This document shows, piece by piece, positions 1 through 19,733 of a DNA stretch of 45,531 nt. Location: the NCBI GenBank assembly GCA_036141575.1, contig JAYZXF010000013.1, forward strand, positions 1 through 45,531, written 5' to 3'. Numbering within the stretch: position 1 is the first letter of the stretch; every line of letters starts with the position of its first letter. The notes beneath the pieces were generated by a model, which was not told where the DNA came from, ran no database searches, and saw only the letters and a list, made by a program, of their open reading frames with translations. Position numbers and translations under genes: made by a program. The stretch comes from Pseudomonadota bacterium (GTDB lineage: Bacteria > Pseudomonadota > Alphaproteobacteria > UBA2136 > JAPKEQ01).

Positions 1-858
1 ATACGGCGCCTCATGGCTGGTTGGACGCGATGTTTCAATACAACCACCTTGGTCAATTGAAATATCAACAATCACCGAACCTTCCCTCATCATCTTCACT
101 TGTTCAGCGCTCACCACTGTTGGTGCTTTACGGCCTAGTACGTACACTGCACCCACAAGCAAATCACATGTTGGCAACAGCTCATTGATGGTTTCCGTAT
201 TTGAAAGACGTGTGTTAATAGCAGGATATTTTGCCTTCACTTCTTTCAAGCGCTCTTCATTCAAGTCAAGCAGGGTTACATTTGCACCCATACCTGCAGC
301 AAGAATAGCAGCTTCCCTACCGGCAACACCTGCACCAATCACCATAACGTTACCAGCACTATGGGTAGAAATACCACCCAGAAGAACACCGCGACCACCC
401 TTAGACGAATGCAGGAAAGATGTGCCGTTTTGTGTTGCCAAGCGCCCAGCAATAGCACTCATTGGTGCAAGAAGTGGTGTTTTACCATCTTCAACAACAG
501 TTTCAAACGCAACGGCTGTCAGGCCAATATTTTTCAGGTCTTCTGTAAGCTTTGGTTCTGCTGCAAGGTGCAGGTAACAGAACAAAAGGTGATCTTTTGT
601 CAGTCTGTCAACGTCCCCTTGCTGAGGTTCTTTTACCTTTACAACCAAATCAGCCATGGCATAAAGAGCATCTGCATCTGCGCAAATACGACAGCCAGCT
701 GCTGCATAGTCATCATTACTGAAGCCTGCGCCTTCACCAGCACTGGACTCAATCCACACTGTATGGCCAGCATCAACGAGTGTCCCCGCATCAGCAGGTG
801 TCAGCGCTACGCGCATTTCAGCAGGTTTGGTTTCTTTAGGAACTCCGATATGGGTCAT
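1..858 (-). CDS. ald: Alanine dehydrogenase (3' part cut off by the window edge)
   Basis: Catalyses NAD-dependent interconversion of L-alanine with pyruvate and ammonia. The reading frame is open from an ATG at 858 to base 1 with no stop, giving 286 residues of a family usually about 370 long. Visible family marks are MRVALTP near residue 15, KVKEP around K74 and CYLHLAAE around H97 (the substrate-binding Lys and His of the family), and the NAD-binding Rossmann loop GAGVAGREAA near residue 170. It is transcribed leftward, divergent from the BI-1 gene. Identification is secure; the C-terminal part cannot be assessed. Confidence 0.95.
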   Translation of the reverse strand, partial: MTHIGVPKETKPAEMRVALTPADAGTLVDAGHTVWIESSAGEGAGFSNDDYAAAGCRICADADALYAMADLVVKVKEPQQGDVDRLTKDHLLFCYLHLAAEPKLTEDLKNIGLTAVAFETVVEDGKTPLLAPMSAIAGRLATQNGTSFLHSSKGGRGVLLGGISTHSAGNVMVIGAGVAGREAAILAAGMGANVTLLDLNEERLKEVKAKYPAINTRLSNTETINELLPTCDLLVGAVYVLGRKAPTVVSAEQVKMMREGSVIVDISIDQGGCIETSRPTSHEAPY

Positions 859-959
859 ATTCGTACCCCTTCATTTCAAAAGGTTTCAGATAAATAGGAC
901 GAGTCTTGTTCGGTTTTTATTGATTTTTTGGCGTAATGCCTCAATATATCCCTATACAA

Positions 960-977
960 GCACGTATATTACCGTGC
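960..977. repeat. Short inverted repeat between ald and the BI-1 gene
   Basis: GCACG and CGTGC arms separated by eight AT-rich bases, 36 bases upstream of the BI-1 start. It could be an operator or a 5' leader hairpin. The arms are only five bases long, so chance is possible. Confidence 0.25.
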
Positions 978-1012
978 GATGATAATGAAATTTAAACAAA
1001 AGGACAAATGAA

Positions 1013-1726
1013 ATGAATATGTCTCACGCTGCATCAACAGTACGCACAAATGACGCCGCTGTTGCTGCATATATGCGCATGATTTTCAACTACATGACTG
1101 GTGGAGTTGCCCTAAGTGGCCTTGTTGCCTTCCTTACAATTAACTCTCCAGGTCTGCTTCAAGTTGCTGTAAACCCAGCGACTCAGCTTATCTTTATGGT
1201 TCTTTGGATTGGTTCTGGCTTTGTAATGGCTGGCCTAATTAACCGCCTACAGCCTGCTGTTGCGCTAGGCTTGTTTGCATTCTTTAGTGCTTTGACAGGG
1301 TTTGCTCTCGCACCTATCGCTCTTGTTTACACAGGCGCAAGTGTTTTTCTAGCCTTCTTTACAGCTGCAGGCATGTTTGCTGGTGCAAGTGCTTACGGTT
1401 ACGTAACAGGTAAATCACTTTCTGGTTGGGGTAACTTCCTAATGATGGGTGTCTGGGGCCTATTCTTCGCTGTGATTATCAACATTGTTGGTAGCCTTAT
1501 GGGCTTCCAGATGAGCGGCCTAGACTTCATGATTAGTCTTCTTGCTGTTCCTTTATTTGCAGGTCTTACAGCTTACGAAACAAACATGCTACGTGATATG
1601 TACCATCAGCACGCTGGTGATGATGTATCAACGGCACGTCGCGCGATCTACGGTGCTTACACACTTTACGTTAACTTCGTAATTATGTTTATCCACCTAC
1701 TTCAGCTGATTGGCGAGCGTCGATAG
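1013..1726 (+). CDS. Bax inhibitor-1 (BI-1/YbhL/YccA) family membrane protein
   Basis: A 237-residue, very hydrophobic protein with about seven membrane helices, the usual size and topology of bacterial BI-1 proteins. The N-terminus (about 25 residues) is soluble and is followed by evenly spaced hydrophobic segments. The C-terminal part has the family's conserved LTAYETNMLRDMY stretch near residue 185. Bacterial members have been linked to calcium leak and to FtsH-dependent membrane quality control; the role here is inferred from family only. An AAAGGA ribosome site precedes the ATG. It is followed directly by a strong terminator. Confidence 0.93.
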   Translation: MNMSHAASTVRTNDAAVAAYMRMIFNYMTGGVALSGLVAFLTINSPGLLQVAVNPATQLIFMVLWIGSGFVMAGLINRLQPAVALGLFAFFSALTGFALAPIALVYTGASVFLAFFTAAGMFAGASAYGYVTGKSLSGWGNFLMMGVWGLFFAVIINIVGSLMGFQMSGLDFMISLLAVPLFAGLTAYETNMLRDMYHQHAGDDVSTARRAIYGAYTLYVNFVIMFIHLLQLIGERR

Positions 1727-1739
1727 CATAAAGCTCTCA

Positions 1740-1770
1740 AAAAAGGCTACCCACCTGGGTAGCTTTTTTT
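1740..1770 (+). terminator. Rho-independent terminator of the BI-1 gene
   Basis: Stem GCTACCCA / TGGGTAGC with a two-base loop, flanked by an A-run and followed by seven T. It ends only two bases before the next proposed start codon. Confidence 0.9.
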
Positions 1771-1772
1771 AT

Positions 1773-2402
1773 ATGATGAACTTTATGAGCTTTTCAAAAT
1801 TACATTTTTACCTCACTGTCCTTGCTATTACAGCAGTTTTTTTATTCCTTACGTTTCATGAATCTCCAGTAAAACAACCTGATGGAATCCTTATAAAAAA
1901 AGAACCTCTACAAGAACAAACATCTGAACTCCCTTTTAAGAAAGGAAAGTTTTTAATTACACCTCTACAATATTATAAACTCCGTGCGAGAGTTCTTGGT
2001 AAAAAACATTACAGGTTTTCAAAATGGGCAGACCTTTCCCCTGTAGACCTTGCTTTAGGCTGGGATGTTATGAGCTCTAATTTTTATTTAGATCAGTTAA
2101 AAATTAAGCAAGCGCGCCGTTGGTACTATGTAAAGTGGGGCAATTCTGCTGCTGTTTCAGAACAGAAAATTTTTAATAACAGCGCGAATGTTCACATTCT
2201 CCCAGCAAATGAGCATGTGGCAACTATGGTTAAAAAATTCAAAGAAGGCACACTTGTTGATTTACAAGGATATTTAGTTCGTGTTGATGACGAAGAAAAG
2301 AATCGTTGGTGGATATCCTCTCAGAGCCGAACAGACAGAGGTGATGGGTCTTGTGAAGTTTTTTATGTAACACAAGCAAGCTTTACCTACTCCGACAAAT
2401 AA
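1773..2402 (+). CDS. Unnamed membrane-anchored protein with a conserved C-terminal domain
   Basis: About 209 residues: one N-terminal membrane helix (roughly residues 10-28), then a soluble, probably periplasmic domain. Striking segments are KWADLSPVDLALGWDVMSS, the tandem tryptophans in RRWYYVKWG, and a C-terminal GYLVRVDDEEKNRWW followed by SRTDRGDGSCEVFYV. I believe this matches a family of unnamed proteobacterial proteins, but I know of no function. The start is uncertain: ATGs at 1773, 1776 and 1785 are in frame, none has a clear ribosome site, and the terminator of the preceding gene ends at 1770. The frame is also open upstream to a TTG at 1710, which is unlikely because it lies inside the BI-1 gene. 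It converges with rho. Confidence 0.8.
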   Translation: MMNFMSFSKLHFYLTVLAITAVFLFLTFHESPVKQPDGILIKKEPLQEQTSELPFKKGKFLITPLQYYKLRARVLGKKHYRFSKWADLSPVDLALGWDVMSSNFYLDQLKIKQARRWYYVKWGNSAAVSEQKIFNNSANVHILPANEHVATMVKKFKEGTLVDLQGYLVRVDDEEKNRWWISSQSRTDRGDGSCEVFYVTQASFTYSDK

Positions 2403-2426
2403 AACCCCCGCTACTGCGAGGGCTTT
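2401..2426 (-). terminator. Terminator downstream of rho
   Basis: Read on the minus strand: CCCTCGC, loop AGTA, GCGGGGG, then T-run. It has one G-T wobble on this strand. On the plus strand the same hairpin carries a C-A mismatch, so it serves rho better than the upstream convergent gene. Confidence 0.75.
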
Positions 2427-2441
2427 AAACTTTTTGAGAAC

Positions 2442-3704
2442 TTACTTGTTCATGCTTTGGAAGAACTCTGCGTTGTTCTTCGTTGCACGCATCTTACCAA
2501 GTAGGAACTCCATAGATTCTACAGGGTTCATTGGCTGAAGAATACGACGCAGCAACCATGTACGCTGTAGATCGTCCTTACCAATCAGAAGCTCTTCTTT
2601 ACGTGTACCAGACTTAGTAATATCTACCGCTGGGTATGTACGTTTTTCAACAAGCTTACGATCTAGCCAGATTTCACTGTTACCTGTTCCTTTGAATTCT
2701 TCAAAGATCACTTCATCCATACGAGAACCTGTTTCAATAAGAGCCGTTGCAATAATTGTAAGAGAGCCACCCTCTTCCACATTACGCGCCGCACCAAAGA
2801 AACGCTTTGGACGTTGTAGAGCATGTGCATCCACACCACCCGTTAAAACTTTACCAGAGCTTGGCACAACTGTGTTGTAAGCACGAGCAAGACGTGTCAA
2901 AGAGTCAAGAAGGATGACAACATCCTTACCTTGCTCAACAAGGCGTTTCGCTTTTTCAATCACCATTTCACTCACTTGGACGTGACGGCTTGCAGGCTCA
3001 TCAAACGTAGAAGAAACAACTTCACCTTTTACGTTACGCTGCATGTCTGTTACTTCCTCAGGACGCTCATCAATCAGAAGAACAATCGTGTGAACGTCAG
3101 GTTGAGTCTTCTCAATTGCGTGAGCAATAGACTGAAGCATCATTGTTTTACCAGCTTTTGGTGGGGCAACAAGCATTGCACGTTGACCTTTACCAATTGG
3201 AGCGACAAGATCAATGATACGACCTGTCATGTTCTTTTTATCTGTTGGGTCGTCACCTTCAAGGTTGAACTTCTCGTTCGGGTAAAGTGGAGTAAGCTTC
3301 TCAAAGTTACGACGAGACTTAGAATTTTTAGGGTTTTCGTAGTTAATCGTCTCAAGTTTAAGCAGAGCAAAGTAACGCTCACCTGGGTTAGGTGGACGTA
3401 CAGAACCTGTAATCGTATCACCAGTTCTTAGACCGTAACGACGAATCTGACTTGGAGAAACATAAATATCTTCTTGTACAGGGAAGTAGTTACTGTCTGG
3501 AGAACGCAAGAAACCAAAACCATCTTGTAGAACTTCAAGAACACCTTCTGCTTTTACATCACGCTCTTCTTCTGGAATTGCTTTGACAATTTCAAACATG
3601 ATTTCTTGGCGTTTCATGGCTGCTGGGTCATCAATACCCATAGCTGAAGCCACTTCAATAAGCTCTTCTGTGCTTTTGTTTTTTAGTTCACTTAGGTGTT
3701 TCAT
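2442..3704 (-). CDS. rho: Transcription termination factor Rho
   Basis: Hexameric RNA-dependent ATPase that ends transcription. At 420 residues it has the normal length. Domains: N-terminal Rho_N helices (1-45), cold-shock-like primary RNA-binding domain with DGFGFLRSP at 61-69, then the RecA-type ATPase with Walker A APPKAGKT at 180-187 and Walker B VILLDSLT at 263-270. The Q-loop region and the [14 protein letters not shown] segment around 283-296 are intact. It lies downstream of hemJ and hemE on the same strand, a standard alphaproteobacterial order, but the 133-base gap to hemJ leaves room for its own promoter. Confidence 0.99.
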
Positions 3705-3837
3705 TAGATTTTGTATCTGCTTTTGATTGATTAAATGGAAATTTGTTTACTTAATTTTGAAATTTGCAGCGTCTGGAGATGCACTGATACGTTCATTTAA
3801 AATGGATTGTGTGCAGCCGTCAAGCTTTTTGTGATCC

Positions 3838-4263
3838 TTAGAAAGGTTTTGTCACAGCAAGAATCACCACAATAATAAGGAAAAGTGTTGGTACTTCATT
3901 TAAAATTCTAAAGTATTTGCCAGACTTTTCCACCCGATCAGCCTGAACTTCACGGTTATATTTAATAAGAATCATATGGTAAATCGTTAAAAGAACCACG
4001 CATGTAAGCTTCACATGAATCCAACCCTGTTCAAACAGGTAAGGATTTTGGATAAGAAGGATCAAACCAAAGATCCAAGACACAATGGCTGCAGGTGTTG
4101 TGATGTAGTTTAAAAGCTTATAAGACATTGTTTGTAGAACTTGCTTAGTCTCTTCTGTCTTTGCACGTTCAACGTAATACACAAAGATACGTGGCAAATA
4201 GAACAAACCAGCAAACCAGCAAACAATGGCAATAATATGAAGAGCTTTAAACGTTAGGTACAT
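3838..4263 (-). CDS. hemJ: Protoporphyrinogen oxidase HemJ
   Basis: Membrane protein of 141 residues that oxidises protoporphyrinogen IX to protoporphyrin IX, the penultimate heme step, in many Alphaproteobacteria. It has four hydrophobic helices, starting with the typical MYLTFKALHIIAIVCWFAGL, whose conserved His is expected to bind heme. The start lies two bases after the hemE stop, so both are almost certainly one transcript. Length and N-terminus match the family closely. Confidence 0.95.
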   Translation of the reverse strand: MYLTFKALHIIAIVCWFAGLFYLPRIFVYYVERAKTEETKQVLQTMSYKLLNYITTPAAIVSWIFGLILLIQNPYLFEQGWIHVKLTCVVLLTIYHMILIKYNREVQADRVEKSGKYFRILNEVPTLFLIIVVILAVTKPF

Positions 4264-4265
4264 CT

Positions 4266-5303
4266 TTATTTCCCTTGTACCGCTTCAACCATAGCCTGAA
4301 CATTTTGGGTAGGTGTTTTAGGTGTAACACCATGGCCAAGGTTAAAGATGTATCGCTGTGTAGGGTCTACCTTAAGAAGTGTATCTTCTACATGAGCTTT
4401 TACTGTTTCAGGATCTGTCATCAGTACCATAGGATCCATGTTTCCTTGTAGGGTTACATGCTTTTGGAGATGAGCCACATGCTCAAGTGGTGTTGAATAA
4501 TCCACACCAAGACCGTCAAACAGGTCACCAAATCGTTCTATCATCATTTCTAGGGTACGACTGTCCACACCACGAGGAAATAGAATAATCGGCGTCTCAG
4601 GGTGTTTATCTTTAAGTAGACGACACATTTCTTGAAGAGGGTTCATCACCGCGTCTTCGAACAACACAGCCGGTACTGAAGCTGCCCAGCTATCAAAAAT
4701 TTGTAGAACCTGAGCGCCTGCTTCAACCTGTTTGCTGAGATAATCTGCTGAAATGCGTGCAAGATTCAGCATTTCTTCTGCCCAAAGAGAAGGATTTTGA
4801 AACGCCCAAGTTTTGAGGTTATCAATACTCTTAGAAGGTTTTGCATCTGTCATATATGCTGCCACCGTCCAAGGTGCACCACAAAAACCAATAAGCGTTT
4901 TATCATCTTCTAAATTTTCACGAATAGAAGAAACAGCCTTATACACAGGATCTAAATGTTGGTGATATGTATCCTTACTCACTTTAAAGTAATTTGAGAA
5001 CTCTTGAAGTGTACTTGCACGTCCAAGAACAGGGCCTTCCCCAGCTTCAAATCTTAAGCTCATACCAAGAGCATGGGGAATAACAAGGATATCACTAAAG
5101 AGAATTGCTGCATCAAAAGCAAAACGTCTTAAAGGCTGAAGTGTGACTTCTGTTGCATACTTAGGTGTATAGCTTAAAGTTAAGAAGTCACCTGCTTCTG
5201 CTCTAAGTTCTCTATATTCAGGAAGGTAACGACCTGCTTGTCTCATCATCCAACAAGGAGGTGTTTCATGTGTAGATCCATGGAGTGTGTTTAATAGTTT
5301 CAT
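4266..5303 (-). CDS. hemE: Uroporphyrinogen decarboxylase
   Basis: Converts uroporphyrinogen III to coproporphyrinogen III in the cytoplasm. The protein has 345 residues, normal for the family. Recognisable segments are WMMRQAGRYLPEYRELR near residue 18, the FSDILVIPHALG substrate loop near residue 70, GFCGAPWTVAAYM near residue 138, and FNLGHGVTPKTP near the C-terminus. It is the first gene of the leftward hemE-hemJ(-rho) group and abuts the probable origin, an arrangement known from Caulobacter and Rickettsia. Confidence 0.99.
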   Translation of the reverse strand: MKLLNTLHGSTHETPPCWMMRQAGRYLPEYRELRAEAGDFLTLSYTPKYATEVTLQPLRRFAFDAAILFSDILVIPHALGMSLRFEAGEGPVLGRASTLQEFSNYFKVSKDTYHQHLDPVYKAVSSIRENLEDDKTLIGFCGAPWTVAAYMTDAKPSKSIDNLKTWAFQNPSLWAEEMLNLARISADYLSKQVEAGAQVLQIFDSWAASVPAVLFEDAVMNPLQEMCRLLKDKHPETPIILFPRGVDSRTLEMMIERFGDLFDGLGVDYSTPLEHVAHLQKHVTLQGNMDPMVLMTDPETVKAHVEDTLLKVDPTQRYIFNLGHGVTPKTPTQNVQAMVEAVQGK

Positions 5304-5364
5304 AAGTTCACACTATACGAAACTTTCTTTTAATTCTAGTCCACATGTGCAGGTTTATTCATCG

Positions 5365-5382
5365 TTAGAATTTAACTTCTAA
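5365..5382. repeat. Inverted repeat inside the probable origin
   Basis: TTAGAA, six-base spacer TTTAAC, TTCTAA. It lies between two weak DnaA boxes and next to the AT-rich block. It may be a regulator site or part of an origin structure. Confidence 0.3.
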
Positions 5383-5592
5383 ACAATCCACATCTACGGA
5401 CTATAAAATAATATATATAAATATATAAAAAATAATTTTTATATTAAGACACAGGGATAATAAGGATAACTTTTATTTAGTTTTTAACATAAAGGACTTA
5501 CATGCATCTTCCACCTTGGAAAACTTCTGTAAATCTATGTGGAGAATTGTGTGTAAAAATATGAGCCTTTTTGAGGGCGTAAGTTTTCACCG

Positions 5593-5601
5593 TTATCCAC
5601 A
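5593..5601 (+). promoter_or_regulatory. Perfect DnaA box 1
   Basis: TTATCCACA, identical to the bacterial consensus. It faces the second perfect box 13 bases away, in opposite orientation. Confidence 0.85.
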
Positions 5602-5614
5602 GGCTTTTTCTTTT

Positions 5615-5623
5615 TGTGGATAA
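5615..5623 (-). promoter_or_regulatory. Perfect DnaA box 2 (inverted)
   Basis: TGTGGATAA on the plus strand, i.e. TTATCCACA on the minus strand. Together with box 1 it forms an inverted pair about 80 bases before the Tim44-like start. Confidence 0.85.
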
Positions 5624-5703
5624 ATCCGTAAAATGAGCCTTGAGAAAAGAAGACGAAGTGAGTACTCTTGGGGTGAATAGGTTATCTAATAAAGGGAAGA
5701 ACA

Positions 5704-6300
5704 ATGCAAGAAGGCCTTACTTTAATCGATTTTATTTTCCTCATTGTTGTTGGAATCTTTGTATTTTCGAGATTTTTCCAAACAAAACTTCCTAAGGATG
5801 ACAAAAAGAAAGAGAAACCACCTCTCAAAACATTTATTGGCTCAACAGAGGATGATTTTGTTCAAGCCACTAAAGTTGTTCCTCTTAAATCTAAGAAGAA
5901 GGACGATAAACCTCTTACAGGTGTGGATAAACTTAAGTCTATGGATCCTTTCTTTAAAGAAGGTAAGTTCCTGAAGGGAGCTGATAATGCCTTTAAAATG
6001 TACTACGAATCTCTTAAAGATGATGATGAAGAATTTCTTGAAGACTTCCTTTCTCCACGTCTCATGGATGAAACCCGTGATTACCTCGATTCAAACCCGA
6101 AAGGTCTTAAGCTTGTTGATAAGATCAAAACATCAAGCATTGTGAATGCGGACGTAAAAGGTCGTACTGCTTTTGTTGATGTGATGTTTGATGTCTCATT
6201 TGATGATAAGTCATCTGAAAAAGTGATTTGGACACTAGCACGTCCTGTGGACAGTGATGATCCAAACTGGGACTTGGATAAAATCCAAAAACCTTCTTAG
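5704..6300 (+). CDS. Tim44-like domain protein
   Basis: 198 residues: one N-terminal membrane helix (about 7-25), a charged Lys-rich linker, and a C-terminal Tim44-like domain from about residue 75, beginning with DPFFKEGKFLKGADNAF. Bacterial relatives of the mitochondrial import subunit Tim44 sit at the inner membrane; in Alphaproteobacteria the family is called TimA, of uncertain role. An AAAGGGAAG ribosome site precedes the ATG. It is the first rightward gene beside the probable origin and is followed 12 bases later by mltA, so they are likely cotranscribed. Confidence 0.88.
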   Translation: MQEGLTLIDFIFLIVVGIFVFSRFFQTKLPKDDKKKEKPPLKTFIGSTEDDFVQATKVVPLKSKKKDDKPLTGVDKLKSMDPFFKEGKFLKGADNAFKMYYESLKDDDEEFLEDFLSPRLMDETRDYLDSNPKGLKLVDKIKTSSIVNADVKGRTAFVDVMFDVSFDDKSSEKVIWTLARPVDSDDPNWDLDKIQKPS

Positions 6301-6312
6301 GGGTTAAACCTC

Positions 6313-7386
6313 ATGAAAAAACTTTATGCCGCAGCTTTTTGTTCTGTTGCTCTTGTTGGATGTGAACAAACATCTATAAAAGAAGTGTCTTGGGATTCTT
6401 ATAAAGAGCAAGATATCCAGTATGCCTATACAAATATTCTTGCATTCTGCGAAAAATCTAAAAAGGGCCCTACTTTTGTAGCGGGAGAATCTTTTGATTT
6501 TAAGCCTGCTTGTAAAAGCCTTAAAGAAGATTCATCACTGGAAACCTTTAAAGCAGTGTTTACCCCTGCTGAAATTCATAAGACAAAGAATCAATTTTTC
6601 CGTAAGCCATCTGCAAAGGTCACTGCTTATTATACCCCTGCCCTAAGTGGGTCTTATACAAAGACAGAAACATATAACGTTCCAGTACATTCAAAACCAA
6701 AAAATCTTGTTCAAATTCATACCAAGCTTTTTGATGAAGATGAAAGCAATGTTTGGATTGGTATGATTCAAGGAAATAAAGTGGTGCCTTATTATGAACG
6801 CGCTGAAATTGAACAAATGAACGGTGATGTTCTCTTCTATACAGATAGCCTTGTTGATAAGTTCTTCCTTCAAGTGCAAGGCTCAGGCTATGTGAATTTT
6901 GAAAATGGTGAAAAGAAGCTTGCCGCTTTTGCTGCTCATAATGGAAAACCTTATACAAGTATTGGTAAAGTTCTTGTTGATGACGGTGAGCTCACACTAG
7001 AAAACGCAGATATGTTTTCTATTAAATCTTGGATTCAAGGGAACCCTGAGCAAATGAAACCTCTCTTTAATACCAATCCTCGCTATATCTTCTTTGGTTG
7101 GGGTAGAGATGTGAAAGGGTCCTCTAAAAAAACATTAGAAGCATTTAGAAGCGCTGCCATTGATCCAAAAACGATGAGCTACGGCCTACCGTTTATCCTT
7201 AAAACAACACGTACTGTTGATAATACAGAACAAACATATAGGCTCCGTGCAGATGATACAGGTGGGGCAATCAAAGGTGTTGGCCGGGTGGATATCTATG
7301 CTGGTGATGGCAAAGAAGCTGAAAAAATGGCGGCTCATCAAAATAGTGATGGAGAAATGGTTGTCTTTTTACCAAGAGCGTTGTAG
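6313..7386 (+). CDS. mltA: Membrane-bound lytic murein transglycosylase A
   Basis: Cleaves peptidoglycan to form 1,6-anhydromuramyl ends. 357 residues with a lipoprotein signal ending LVGC (Cys17), so it should be outer-membrane anchored. The MltA domain covers about 100-260 (LTAYYTP-like KVTAYYTPALSGSY near 97; FFLQVQGSGYV near 185), and the C-terminal 3D domain carries DDTGGAIKGVGRVDIYAGDG near residue 315, with the family's catalytic Asp region intact. It follows the Tim44-like gene, a usual alphaproteobacterial pairing. Confidence 0.96.
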   Translation: MKKLYAAAFCSVALVGCEQTSIKEVSWDSYKEQDIQYAYTNILAFCEKSKKGPTFVAGESFDFKPACKSLKEDSSLETFKAVFTPAEIHKTKNQFFRKPSAKVTAYYTPALSGSYTKTETYNVPVHSKPKNLVQIHTKLFDEDESNVWIGMIQGNKVVPYYERAEIEQMNGDVLFYTDSLVDKFFLQVQGSGYVNFENGEKKLAAFAAHNGKPYTSIGKVLVDDGELTLENADMFSIKSWIQGNPEQMKPLFNTNPRYIFFGWGRDVKGSSKKTLEAFRSAAIDPKTMSYGLPFILKTTRTVDNTEQTYRLRADDTGGAIKGVGRVDIYAGDGKEAEKMAAHQNSDGEMVVFLPRAL

Positions 7387-7420
7387 CGTGTGCTCATAAA
7401 CAGAAGGAACACATATCCTC

Positions 7421-8356
7421 ATGAAAACGCTAAAACTTGGTACACGTCGTAGTAAACTTGCTCTTGTTCAAGCAAACCTTGTGAAAAAACACATTGAAGA
7501 TGCGTGCCATGATATTCAAGTTGAGATTGTTGAGTTTGTCACCACTGGTGACCGTTCACAGGCTTGGGGAAACAGAGCAAAGTTGAGTGGTAAAGGTGAT
7601 TTTACCAAAGAAATTGAAGACGCTCTTCTTGATAAATCTATAGATCTTGCAGCACACTCTATGAAAGATGTTCCTGTTCACCTTCCAGAAGGGCTTGAAA
7701 TTAAAGCTGTACTTCCGCGTCACGATCCAAGAGATGTTTATATTTCAAATAAATATGACTTTGAAAAACTTCCAGCAAAGGCTGCTGTTGGTACTGGCGC
7801 TATTCGCCGTGTTTCACAATTGAAAAACATGTTTCCAGATTTGAATATTCAACCGATTCGCGGAAATGTAGAAACACGTATCCAAAAAATGAAAGATGGT
7901 GAATTTGACGCCATTATCCTTGCAAAAGCTGGGCTAGACCTTCTTGGACTACAAAAAGAAATTCATACTGTTTTTGAACCTGACCTTATGTTGCCGGCTC
8001 TTGCGCAAGGTATTGTTGGTGTTGAATGTCGCAGCGATGATGATGTAGCACTTGAAGCGCTTTCTGCCATTAACCATGCAGAAACATGGGCCTGTGTAAC
8101 AGCAGAACGCTCTCTCCTTGAAAAACTTGGTGGAGATTGTAAAACGCCTGTTGCTGGATACTGTCAGGCCACGGCTGGCGGAAACCTTCGTTTGATTGCA
8201 ATGGTTTCTTCAATGGATGGCCAAACTGTGTTCCGTGCCCGTGAAAAAATGCCAGTAGAAGATCCATATACTCTTGGCCAACATGTTGCTGATGTTCTTA
8301 TAGAGCAAGGTGCAGATAAAGTGATTGCAGAATGCAAAGCCGCATTATCATCGTAG
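7421..8356 (+). CDS. hemC: Porphobilinogen deaminase (hydroxymethylbilane synthase)
   Basis: Joins four porphobilinogens into hydroxymethylbilane. 311 residues, normal length. N-terminal LKLGTRRSKLALVQANLV, the central HSMKDVP and GAIRRVSQL motifs, and the cofactor-binding loop LGGDCKTPVAGY with Cys240, which should carry the dipyrromethane cofactor. An AGAAGGA ribosome site is present. The end overlaps hemD by 25 bases, indicating translational coupling. Confidence 0.98.
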   Translation: MKTLKLGTRRSKLALVQANLVKKHIEDACHDIQVEIVEFVTTGDRSQAWGNRAKLSGKGDFTKEIEDALLDKSIDLAAHSMKDVPVHLPEGLEIKAVLPRHDPRDVYISNKYDFEKLPAKAAVGTGAIRRVSQLKNMFPDLNIQPIRGNVETRIQKMKDGEFDAIILAKAGLDLLGLQKEIHTVFEPDLMLPALAQGIVGVECRSDDDVALEALSAINHAETWACVTAERSLLEKLGGDCKTPVAGYCQATAGGNLRLIAMVSSMDGQTVFRAREKMPVEDPYTLGQHVADVLIEQGADKVIAECKAALSS

Positions 8357-15544: not shown

Positions 15545-17434
15545 ATGAAATATACATATGATGTGATTGTTGTTGGTGGTGGGCACGCAGGTTCTGAGGC
15601 GGCTGCTGCGGCTGCGCGCATGGGCGCAGATACTCTTTTGCTTACAGGTAACCTTGATACAATTGGTCAAATGTCATGTAACCCAGCTATTGGTGGTCTT
15701 GCTAAAGGGCACCTTGTACGTGAGATTGATGCCTTGGACGGCATCATGGGACGCATGACAGATGTTTCAGGTCTTCAGTTCCGTATTCTTAATGCGAGTA
15801 AAGGTCCTGCTGTCCGTGGTCCACGTGCACAGTCAGATCGTAAACTGTACCGCGAAGCGGTACAAATGGAACTTCTGGGTACAGAGAACCTAACAATCAA
15901 GCAGGCAATGGTTGATGATATTGAGCTTGATGAAAACGGTGAAGTCTCTGCTGTTGTCACGTCTATTGGTCTTAAGTTCCATGCCCCGTCTATTATCCTT
16001 ACAACAGGAACATTCCTAAAAGGTCTCATTCATATCGGTGACTCTAAGCAGTCAGCTGGTCGTGCAGGTGAGCCTGCTTCTATGAAGCTCAGTGAAACTC
16101 TAGGCCGCCTTAACTTTAAGCTTGGGCGTTTAAAAACAGGGACACCCCCTCGCCTAGATACACGCACCATTGATTATTCAAAGCTTGAAGTGCAGCACGG
16201 TGATGATGTTCCAGTACCGTTCTCGGACCTGACTGAGACAATTGAGCAGGAGCAGATTCCTTGCCATATCACATATACAAATGAGAAAACTCACGAAATT
16301 ATTTGTGAAAACCTAAGTCGTTCACCACTTTATGCTGGTGTAATTGAAGGTGTTGGGCCACGTTATTGCCCATCTATTGAAGATAAGGTTGTGCGCTTTG
16401 CTGAGAAGAGCCGCCACCAAATTTTCCTAGAACCTGAAGGTTTTGATAGTGTAGAGGTTTACCCGAACGGGATCTCTACTTCTCTTCCAATTGATGCTCA
16501 GATTGAGATTGTGCGCTCTATTGAAGGGCTTGAGAATGCTGAAATTCTGCGTGCAGGCTATGCAATCGAGTATGATTACATTGATCCAACAGAGCTCACA
16601 CATACATTAGAGACAAAGAAGATTAAAGGTCTCTTCCTGGCAGGTCAGATTAATGGCACAACTGGTTATGAAGAAGCCGCAGCTCAAGGTCTTATGGCAG
16701 GCCTTAATGCAGCCCTAAAAGTCAAAACAAATCAAAAGTTTAAGCTAGATCGAGCAGATGCGTACATAGGGGTACTTATTGATGACCTTGTTACACGTGG
16801 AACATCTGAGCCGTACCGTATGTTTACCTCGCGCGCAGAGTACCGTTTACTGCTGAGAGCGGACAATGCGGACCTTCGTTTGACACAGAAGGGTATGGAC
16901 ATTGGCTGTATCTCTGAGCGCCGCCAAAAGCACTTTGCAGCGCGCCTTGAGGCACTCTCTCAGGCAGAGACATACTTTAAGGAAACAAAGATCAAGCCTT
17001 CAAGTGAGCTAGGTGCTCATGTACAGGAGGTCTCAGGTCGTTATGAGCATAGCCAGAGCCTGTTTCAGCTTCTTAAGCGCCCTCAGATTACGCTAGAGAG
17101 CCTTAAAGCTTTTGATGGCTCTATTGATACCTTGGCGCCTAAGGCGCTTGAGCAGGTAGAGATTGAGGCTCATTATGATGGTTATTTGTCCCGTCAGAAG
17201 GCTGAGATTGATGCTATGCGCATGGATGAGGCTCTAGAGATTCCAGTTGATTTAGACTACAGCAAGGTCGGTGGCCTCTCTAATGAGGTGGTTGAAAAGC
17301 TTAAAACCTATCAGCCAGCCAGTATTGGTGCAGCGAGTCGTATTAGTGGTATGACCCCTTCTGCTCTGACAGCTTTATGGATTTATATAAGGAAGAATAA
17401 CCCAAATGGTGAACAAAGCACTCAAGCAGGATAG
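15545..17434 (+). CDS. mnmG: tRNA uridine 5-carboxymethylaminomethyl modification enzyme MnmG (GidA)
   Basis: FAD-dependent partner of MnmE in wobble-uridine modification of tRNA. The start at 15545 is chosen because AAAGGAAAAGAG precedes it and the product then has 629 residues, the E. coli length; an in-frame ATG at 15524 would add seven residues. The FAD loop [10 protein letters not shown] is at 11-20, with [14 protein letters not shown] near 46, and KTGTPPRL and [17 protein letters not shown] further on. The 3' end overlaps rsmG by 29 bases. mnmE, commonly next to it, is not in this window. Confidence 0.98.
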
Positions 17435-18059
17435 AGATGTCTTCTTACAGGAGATTAAGTCTCTTCCTTTTACAATAAATGATGATCAATTAGCTCTTCT
17501 GGATACTTATGCGGAAGAGCTTTTCAAATGGTCAGGTAAAATAAATCTTATTGGACCTGATACAAGAACTAAGATTTATACAAGACATATCTTAGATGCT
17601 TTACAACTTGTTCCATATGTTTCACATGAAACACAAATACTCGATATAGGATCTGGTGCAGGTGTACCAGGTATTATTCTATCTATAATGGGATATAAAA
17701 ATGTAACGACATGTGATGTTGTGAATAAAAAGATAATTTTTCAAAATTCTTTTGCTAAAAAGTATTTAAAGGGATGTGATTTTTCTGCAAGATGTATTTC
17801 TATTGAAGAAATAGATTTAGAAAATGAAAAAAGAATCCTTATAACATCAAGGGCTTTCGCGGCATTGTTGAAAATATTTGAAATGACAAATCATTTACAT
17901 GACCGTGTTGATCAAATGGTTTTATTAAAAGGTGAAAACTTTAATGATGAAATATTAGAGTGTTCTAAAAAATATCAGATGACATATGAAACGTTTCCGA
18001 GTATAACTAAAGAGGGTGCGAAAATTATAAAAATAACGCAATTCGTAAAAACCCAATAA
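17406..18059 (+). CDS. rsmG: 16S rRNA (guanine527-N7)-methyltransferase RsmG (GidB)
   Basis: Methylates G527 of 16S rRNA. 217 residues with N-terminal [11 protein letters not shown] near 41 and the SAM-binding loop [14 protein letters not shown] at 79-92. The gene starts inside mnmG and ends 13 bases before parA. Its base composition is clearly more AT-rich than its neighbours (14 G+C in 17701-17760 against 27 in 17161-17220 of mnmG), with many ATA and AGA codons. A near-perfect parS site lies within codons 71-76. Confidence 0.96.
17618..17633 (+). promoter_or_regulatory. parS centromere-like site inside rsmG
   Basis: TGTTTCACATGAAACA, 15 of 16 bases identical to the widely conserved ParB site TGTTTCACGTGAAACA. 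Both seven-base arms are intact. It is 440 bases upstream of parA and about 12 kb from the probable origin, as expected for ParABS. Confidence 0.88.
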
Positions 18060-18072
18060 AGGAAAAACTCGA

Positions 18073-18870
18073 ATGGCTCATGTGATAGCAATTGTTAACC
18101 AAAAAGGCGGTGTTGGAAAAACAACAACGGCGATGAATTTGTCAACAGCTCTTGCAGCGTGTGGAAAAAAAGTACTACTTGTAGATTTTGATCCTCAAGG
18201 TAACGCGACAACAGGCTTTAATTTGGATAAATCATCTAATAAACAAAATTCATACTCTTTAATTATGCAAAAAGCTGCAGTTGAAGATACAATCCTATCT
18301 ACAAGTGTTCCAAATTTGAGCCTTATTCCTTCAACAATTCATTTATCAGGTGCTGAAGTTGAACTTGTACCGGTTATGGCGCGTGAGTACCGTCTGCGTG
18401 ATGCTCTAAAATCAGTGCATGACCAATATGATTACATTTTTATTGATTGCCCACCTTCTCTTGGGCTCCTTACATTGAATGCTCTTTCAGCATCTACAGA
18501 AGTTATGGTTCCTCTTCAGTGTGAATTTTTCGCAATGGAAGGTGTTTCTCAACTTTTACAAACTGTGAAACTTGTAAAGCGTAACCTAAACCCGAATATT
18601 GAAGTTGGTGGCGTACTGCTAACAATGTTTGATGTTCGTAATAAGCTTTCAGGCATGGTTGAAAAAGAAGTTCGTGAACATCTGGGTAGTCTTGTGTATA
18701 AAACGCTTATTCCTCGTAATGTGCGTGTGTCAGAAGCACCTAGCCATGGTAAACCTGTTCTTCTTTATGATGTGAACTGTGCTGGTAGCCAGGCATACAT
18801 TCGCCTAGCTGGTGAAATGATTCGTCGCCATAACCAGCTTTCAAGCACTAAAGTGGGAGTAGCTGCATAA
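18073..18870 (+). CDS. parA: Chromosome partitioning ATPase ParA
   Basis: Walker-type ATPase that moves ParB-bound origins along the nucleoid. 265 residues, the chromosomal (Soj-like) length without an N-terminal HTH. Deviant Walker A KGGVGKTT at 11-18, VDFDPQGNATTG near 41, and DYIFIDCPPSLGLLTLNAL near 120. AAAGGAAA ribosome site before the ATG. It overlaps parB by one base (TAATG). Confidence 0.98.
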   Translation: MAHVIAIVNQKGGVGKTTTAMNLSTALAACGKKVLLVDFDPQGNATTGFNLDKSSNKQNSYSLIMQKAAVEDTILSTSVPNLSLIPSTIHLSGAEVELVPVMAREYRLRDALKSVHDQYDYIFIDCPPSLGLLTLNALSASTEVMVPLQCEFFAMEGVSQLLQTVKLVKRNLNPNIEVGGVLLTMFDVRNKLSGMVEKEVREHLGSLVYKTLIPRNVRVSEAPSHGKPVLLYDVNCAGSQAYIRLAGEMIRRHNQLSSTKVGVAA

Positions 18871-19733
18871 TGAATAAAGGTCTTGGTAAAGGTCTAGGTG
18901 CTCTACTAGATGATAGTGATTTTGCTGTAGGTAGTGGTTTTGAGAGTACTGGTGCACCACAAGTGTTGTCAGTAACACTTCTTGGCCCTTCAGATGCGCA
19001 GCCACGCCGTACATTTGATGAAGATGCATTAAAGGCTCTTTCTGAATCTATTAAGTCTCAGGGTGTACTTCAACCCTTACTTGTTCGTCCTACTGGGGAT
19101 CGTTATGAAATTATTGCCGGTGAGCGTCGCTGGAGAGCTTCACAAATGGCTGGTCTTTCAGAGGTTCCTGTTATTGTAAAAGAGATGGATGATGGCCGCG
19201 CGCTTGAGATTGCTCTTGTTGAAAACGTCCAGCGTTCAGACTTGAACCCAATTGATGAAGCTGATGGTTATTTGCGTCTTATGAATGAGTTCAATTATAC
19301 CCATGAACAGATCGCAAAAGTGACAGGTAAGAGTAGAAGTCATGTCACAAACCTTATGCGCCTTCTCTCTTTACCTAAAAAATTGAAAGAATGTGTGAGT
19401 GAAGGTTTACTTACAATGGGACATGCCCGCGCTCTTCTTGGGCTTGCACATGATGAATCATTACAGCTTCGTATCGCAAATCAGGTCATTAAAAAGACAC
19501 TTTCAGTGCGTGAAACTGAAGATTTAGTACGAAAACACTCTGATGGAAAGAAGAAAAAAGAGCCTCGCCAGAGAAATGTAAGCCCAGCAACTTTAGAGCT
19601 AGAATCTCGCATGCAAACAGTGCTTGGTTCTAAGGTTCAAGTCACCCAAAAAGAGGGTGTTGGACACATTAAAGTATTCTTTGAGGATTCAAAAGAGCTT
19701 CTTGATATTGTAAACAAGATCTCGCAGTCATGA
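18870..19733 (+). CDS. parB: Chromosome partitioning protein ParB
   Basis: CTP-dependent DNA clamp that loads at parS. 287 residues. N-terminal KGLGKGLGALL typical of ParB; QPRRTFDEDALKALSESI near 48; CTP-binding box GERRWRA near 86; ENVQRSDLNPIDEADGY near 116; HTH region with KVTGKSRSHVTNLMRLLSLP near 150; C-terminal dimerisation region. Its stop overlaps the convergent yggS stop within the palindrome TCATGA. Confidence 0.98.
   Translation: MNKGLGKGLGALLDDSDFAVGSGFESTGAPQVLSVTLLGPSDAQPRRTFDEDALKALSESIKSQGVLQPLLVRPTGDRYEIIAGERRWRASQMAGLSEVPVIVKEMDDGRALEIALVENVQRSDLNPIDEADGYLRLMNEFNYTHEQIAKVTGKSRSHVTNLMRLLSLPKKLKECVSEGLLTMGHARALLGLAHDESLQLRIANQVIKKTLSVRETEDLVRKHSDGKKKKEPRQRNVSPATLELESRMQTVLGSKVQVTQKEGVGHIKVFFEDSKELLDIVNKISQS

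Follow-up and report, generated by a model that had tools for sequence, protein, structure and literature searches.

The window, i.e., the whole stretch of DNA analyzed here (45,531 nucleotides, contig C13 of the genome of an uncultured alphaproteobacterium), carries a gap at positions 5304-5703 between the divergent genes hemE and a gene for a Tim44-domain protein. The GC content of this gap is 31% vs. 45% genome-wide; an A/T content above the genome average and hemE as one of the two boundary genes are both traits of the hemE-linked origins of Alphaproteobacteria. The features of the locus are as follows:

4266-5303, minus strand: hemE, uroporphyrinogen decarboxylase (Pfam URO-D, E 1.4e-109)
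5304-5703: hemE/Tim44 gap, candidate oriC, supported by the skew minimum of the joined contigs at 5066 and by a top DnaA-box score tied with contig C10
5337-5345, plus strand: weak DnaA-box match TAGTCCACA (7/9)
5384-5392, plus strand: weak DnaA-box match CAATCCACA (7/9), directly ahead of the A/T block
5402-5447: 46-base A/T-only block, proposed DNA-unwinding element, longest A/T-only run of the genome
5452-5469, minus strand: abutting weak DnaA-box tandem TTATCCTTA-TTATCCCTG, directed toward the A/T block and hemE
5538-5546, minus strand: DnaA box TTCTCCACA (8/9)
5550-5558, minus strand: weak DnaA-box match TTTTACACA (7/9), overlapping TTACACACA at 5548 (minus strand)
5593-5601, plus strand: perfect DnaA box TTATCCACA, aligned box conserved in genome G003
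5615-5623, minus strand: perfect DnaA box TTATCCACA, inverted relative to the box at 5593, aligned box conserved in G003
5704-6300, plus strand: Tim44-domain protein (Tim44/TimA-like; Pfam Tim44, E 2.1e-12)
5922-5930, minus strand: third perfect DnaA box, within the Tim44 coding sequence
16789-16804: parS-like palindrome TGTTACACGTGGAACA (1 mismatch)
17618-17633: parS-like palindrome TGTTTCACATGAAACA (1 mismatch)
18073-19733, plus strand: parA and parB (Pfam)

The list of open reading frames bears out the leftward orientation of hemE, hemJ and rho described in the first-pass annotation, and the unbroken rightward run to parB comprises 13 genes where fourteen had been counted. The parABS system, placed about 12 kb away, is indeed found there, as parA starts at a distance of 12.4 kb and the parS-like sites lie at 16789 and 17618. 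The match of the Tim44-domain protein to NCBIfam was below the cut-off. The plasmid DNA search returned no match, and nothing meaningful was obtained with Rfam for positions 5304-5703. Also, positions 18001-18400 of the window, at the start of parA, match the DnaA box with one mismatch at two sites and with two mismatches at five sites within 400 bases, a box score among the highest of the genome.

DnaA boxes are clustered in the gap beyond chance, with two perfect, one one-mismatch and five two-mismatch matches. The two perfect inverted boxes announced at 5593 (plus) and 5615 (minus) are present, separated by a spacer of 13 bases, and so is the 8/9 box at 5538-5546 (minus). Two 7/9 boxes had been claimed; we counted five such matches in the gap, at 5337 (plus), 5384 (plus), 5461 (minus), 5548 (minus) and 5550 (minus), and the perfect box inside the Tim44 gene was missing from the earlier description. 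Perfect boxes number only 23 in the 1.85-Mb genome. When the gap was subjected to 2000 dinucleotide shuffles, none reached at least two perfect boxes, at least three boxes with one mismatch or fewer, or at least eight boxes with two mismatches or fewer. The windows over the gap have the highest DnaA-box score of the genome, a rank shared with a cluster on contig C10.

The gap also contains an A/T-rich region suited to unwinding. The block of about 50 bases, almost entirely A and T, that had been proposed is real, with a length of exactly 46 bases (5402-5447). It exceeds every other A/T-only run in the 1.85-Mb genome, the second longest being 29 bases, and none of the 2000 dinucleotide shuffles gave a run of 46 bases or more, their largest being 32. 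The box tandem at 5452-5469 adjoins this region, an arrangement that is similar in four relatives. The bacterial basal unwinding system consists of two DnaA boxes, a spacer and DnaA-trios (PMC8287927). Like this system, the gap has tandem boxes that face an A/T-rich block for unwinding, in a position shared by the window and related genomes. The gap differs from it in that a run of DnaA-trios (3'-GAT-5') is not clear there when judged by eye; trio-like CTA steps are clearer in genomes G003 and G017 than in the window.

GC skew was computed on all 19 contigs, together 1,849,498 bases of a genome that is 97.7% complete. Every contig except C13 lies on one replication arm, with a single skew sign over almost its whole length, C16 having a weak end effect. 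As the left arm inside the window measures only 5.3 kb, the remainder of that arm depends on a join with contig C18, which, once reversed, connects to the left of C13 through a 20-base exact overlap of its end with the first bases of C13; this join is supported by G001, a genome of the same genus, whose contig C66 spans both. In the joined contigs (113 kb), the cumulative GC skew reaches its minimum at window position 5066, with a mean skew of -7.3% on its left side and +8.0% on its right, and a switch of t 12.3 (1-kb windows). The minimum falls 238 bases inside hemE, which is within the resolution of the method, since values within 60 of the minimum extend from 743 to 7495. Other large t values (C11 13.1, C8, C2) separate segments of the same sign, and a sign change at 56 kb of C16 was rejected as an origin, being small and weak and without a perfect box. 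The first-pass annotation had made its reading depend on where the skew minimum would lie, and the sole strong minus-to-plus switch of the genome is the one at the hemE/Tim44 gap. Also, at the end of contig C11 (267000-275984), the skew rises abruptly to +22%, a value far above those seen elsewhere in the genome.

The boxes, the A/T block and the skew switch, all seen directly in this genome, recur in relatives of the same order. G003, a member of another family, retains the hemE/Tim44 gap, in which two boxes are perfect and three have one mismatch; the strong box module can be aligned with that of the window (GTTATCCACAG ... GTGGATAAAT), the A/T run of 32 bases is the longest in the 200 kb scanned, and the skew minimum lies at 351,099, just inside hemE (240 kb). 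In G004, from a third family, the gap is bounded by mltA and hemE and holds DnaA boxes and an A/T run of 27 bases, with a skew minimum at 47,354, inside hemE (140 kb). In both genomes, no A/T run in the stretch read is longer than the one in the hemE-side gap. Among five members (G000, the present genome, with G003, G004, G006 and G017), the 40 bases of lowest GC are on the hemE side, and reverse GGATAA boxes come after the A/T-rich block, toward the other gene. This block has the same relative place in the four relatives as at 5402-5447, and each of them has a reverse GGATAA box where the tandem (5452-5469) stands in the window. The closest relative, G001, remained outside this comparison as its hemE and Tim44 genes both end at contig ends; in the HemE search of the genome contigs, only G001 matched. 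In G008, a relative of G003 that yielded neither hemE nor Tim44, a dense array of DnaA-box-like repeats (TTATCCACAGGTTTCCCACAACGATATCCACAGG...) occupies C71:3272-3465.

One family of the order, f2, stands apart. In its members G002 and G007, strong DnaA boxes and a skew minimum are both absent near hemE, and the neighborhood of hemE and Tim44 lies there in uniform positive skew (G002:C2, ~544 kb; G007:C6, ~356 kb). The lack of boxes and of a skew minimum at hemE indicates that the origin of these genomes is located elsewhere, so that the linkage to hemE is not universal in the order. The origin of this family has thus apparently shifted away from hemE.

Could replication instead start elsewhere in the genome, with the gap having another role? 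It is hardly conceivable that the origin adjoins dnaA, as in many bacteria, and that the gap is merely a DnaA-regulated promoter region. Two perfect boxes do lie upstream of rpsT-dnaA-dnaN on contig C8 (50509 and 50596), but they are only two and explicable by DnaA autoregulation, and the skew of C8 is positive throughout; without a skew switch, this locus was rejected. The cluster of the uvrC/glmU gap (C10:8010-8512), strongly conserved in the order, equals the hemE/Tim44 gap in box score: two of its boxes are perfect and three have one mismatch. However, the skew of C10 is negative throughout, and in G003 about 379 kb separate the corresponding element from hemE, where the deep skew minimum lies, so that this cluster was also rejected and is a very improbable start of replication. 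Some DnaA-box clusters are known to regulate rather than to serve as origins (PMC5742627), and, the flanking genes being divergent, the hemE/Tim44 gap might be their promoter or a DnaA-titration region, retained for DnaA regulation of hemE or Tim44. We find this highly unlikely, as it explains neither the switch in skew, seen in this genome and in two relatives, nor the position beside the boxes of an A/T run that no other run in the genome equals in length.

The box and A/T statistics, the skew switch, the recurrence of this switch in the gap beside hemE in two relatives that belong to other families, the layout common to five members and the proximity of parABS support the candidate oriC of the first-pass annotation, and, judging from the sequence, we are highly confident that the gap 5304-5703 is the single chromosomal replication origin of this uncultured alphaproteobacterium. 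The locus upstream of uvrC is conserved but is not the origin. It comprises two perfect boxes of like orientation at a distance of about 180 bases (C10:8311-8512), and this pair is found in nine genomes of the order as well as in G075, from another family outside the order; in most, the box near uvrC stands between two weaker boxes, one of like orientation and one inverted. Rfam gave nothing meaningful on these loci. This locus may act in the manner of datA/DARS or as a promoter under DnaA regulation, and as a non-origin box pair it is more unusual than oriC itself. A CtrA-free alphaproteobacterial origin whose firing would be tuned by this distant locus, like datA or DARS of Escherichia coli, is a tentative and rather doubtful proposal. 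At C10:8573-10160, glmU is seemingly split into two adjacent frames, one for the N-terminal pyrophosphorylase part and one for the C-terminal hexapeptide-repeat part, followed by glmS.

Other control sites were scanned for in the gap. No CtrA site (TTAA-N7-TTAA) was detected in its sequence, and the ctrA gene was not found in the 97.7% complete genome: the only Trans_reg_C protein, an OmpR-type regulator, is closest to KdpE and scores 148.5 bits with the CtrA model vs. a cut-off of 350. A consensus scan for IHF sites yielded no WATCAANNNNTTR match in the gap, and the GANTC scan of the gap gave nothing. The other boundary gene is neither COG1806 nor COG1253 but Tim44; the Kinase-PPPase domain (PF03618, COG1806) was absent from the genome search, for which the control in Caulobacter was positive.

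Origins between hemE and COG1806 have been described in Caulobacter and Rickettsia, and between hemE and COG1253 in Wolbachia, Ehrlichia, and Anaplasma (Ioannidis et al., PMC1914354). The origin of Caulobacter crescentus, Cori, lies in a hemE/COG1806 gap of 404 bp (PMC1914354, PMC4468827) and contains weak G-boxes (TGATCCACA), W-boxes (TCCCCA) and five CtrA sites (PMC4468827, PMC4285127). The gap of the window resembles it as an interval of about 400 bases beside a divergent hemE, A/T-richer than the genome, with DnaA boxes and parABS nearby (PMC1914354, PMC4468827). It departs from Cori, whose G- and W-boxes are weak, by its perfect TTATCCACA boxes of the E. coli type, by having no CtrA site and no detected CtrA gene, and by Tim44 in place of COG1806. 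The origins predicted for Rickettsia, Wolbachia, Ehrlichia and Anaplasma, of 383-620 bases and thus similar in size, likewise keep the hemE flank with a variable other flank and are A/T-rich (PMC1914354); the present gap differs from them by its Tim44 side (mltA in one relative) and by having no match to the CtrA or IHF consensus. The likeness to Caulobacter and Rickettsia origins first put forward for the hemE side holds for that flank only; the gap has neither CtrA sites nor COG1806 as a neighbor. It is almost certainly a hemE-linked alphaproteobacterial oriC, otherwise ordinary, that differs in its Tim44 flank and shows no sign of CtrA control.

By analogy with established DnaA/oriC biology, DnaA-ATP would bind first to the strong inverted pair at 5593/5615 and to the 8/9 box at 5538, and would then spread onto the weaker boxes, among them the abutting tandem (5452-5469) that faces the A/T-only block. 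The DnaA filament would open the block at 5402-5447, where the replicative helicase may be loaded for two forks, one leaving leftward through hemE-hemJ-rho and the other rightward through Tim44 toward parAB.

We found no described origin in the literature for this order of Alphaproteobacteria. The present data would fix the origin, and hence the replication arms, for an uncultured order. That the hemE flank is retained in the absence of the other flank and of CtrA control agrees with reports on Wolbachia-like bacteria. Also, the link to hemE has seemingly been lost in one family of the order, which would make it a small natural case of origin relocation.
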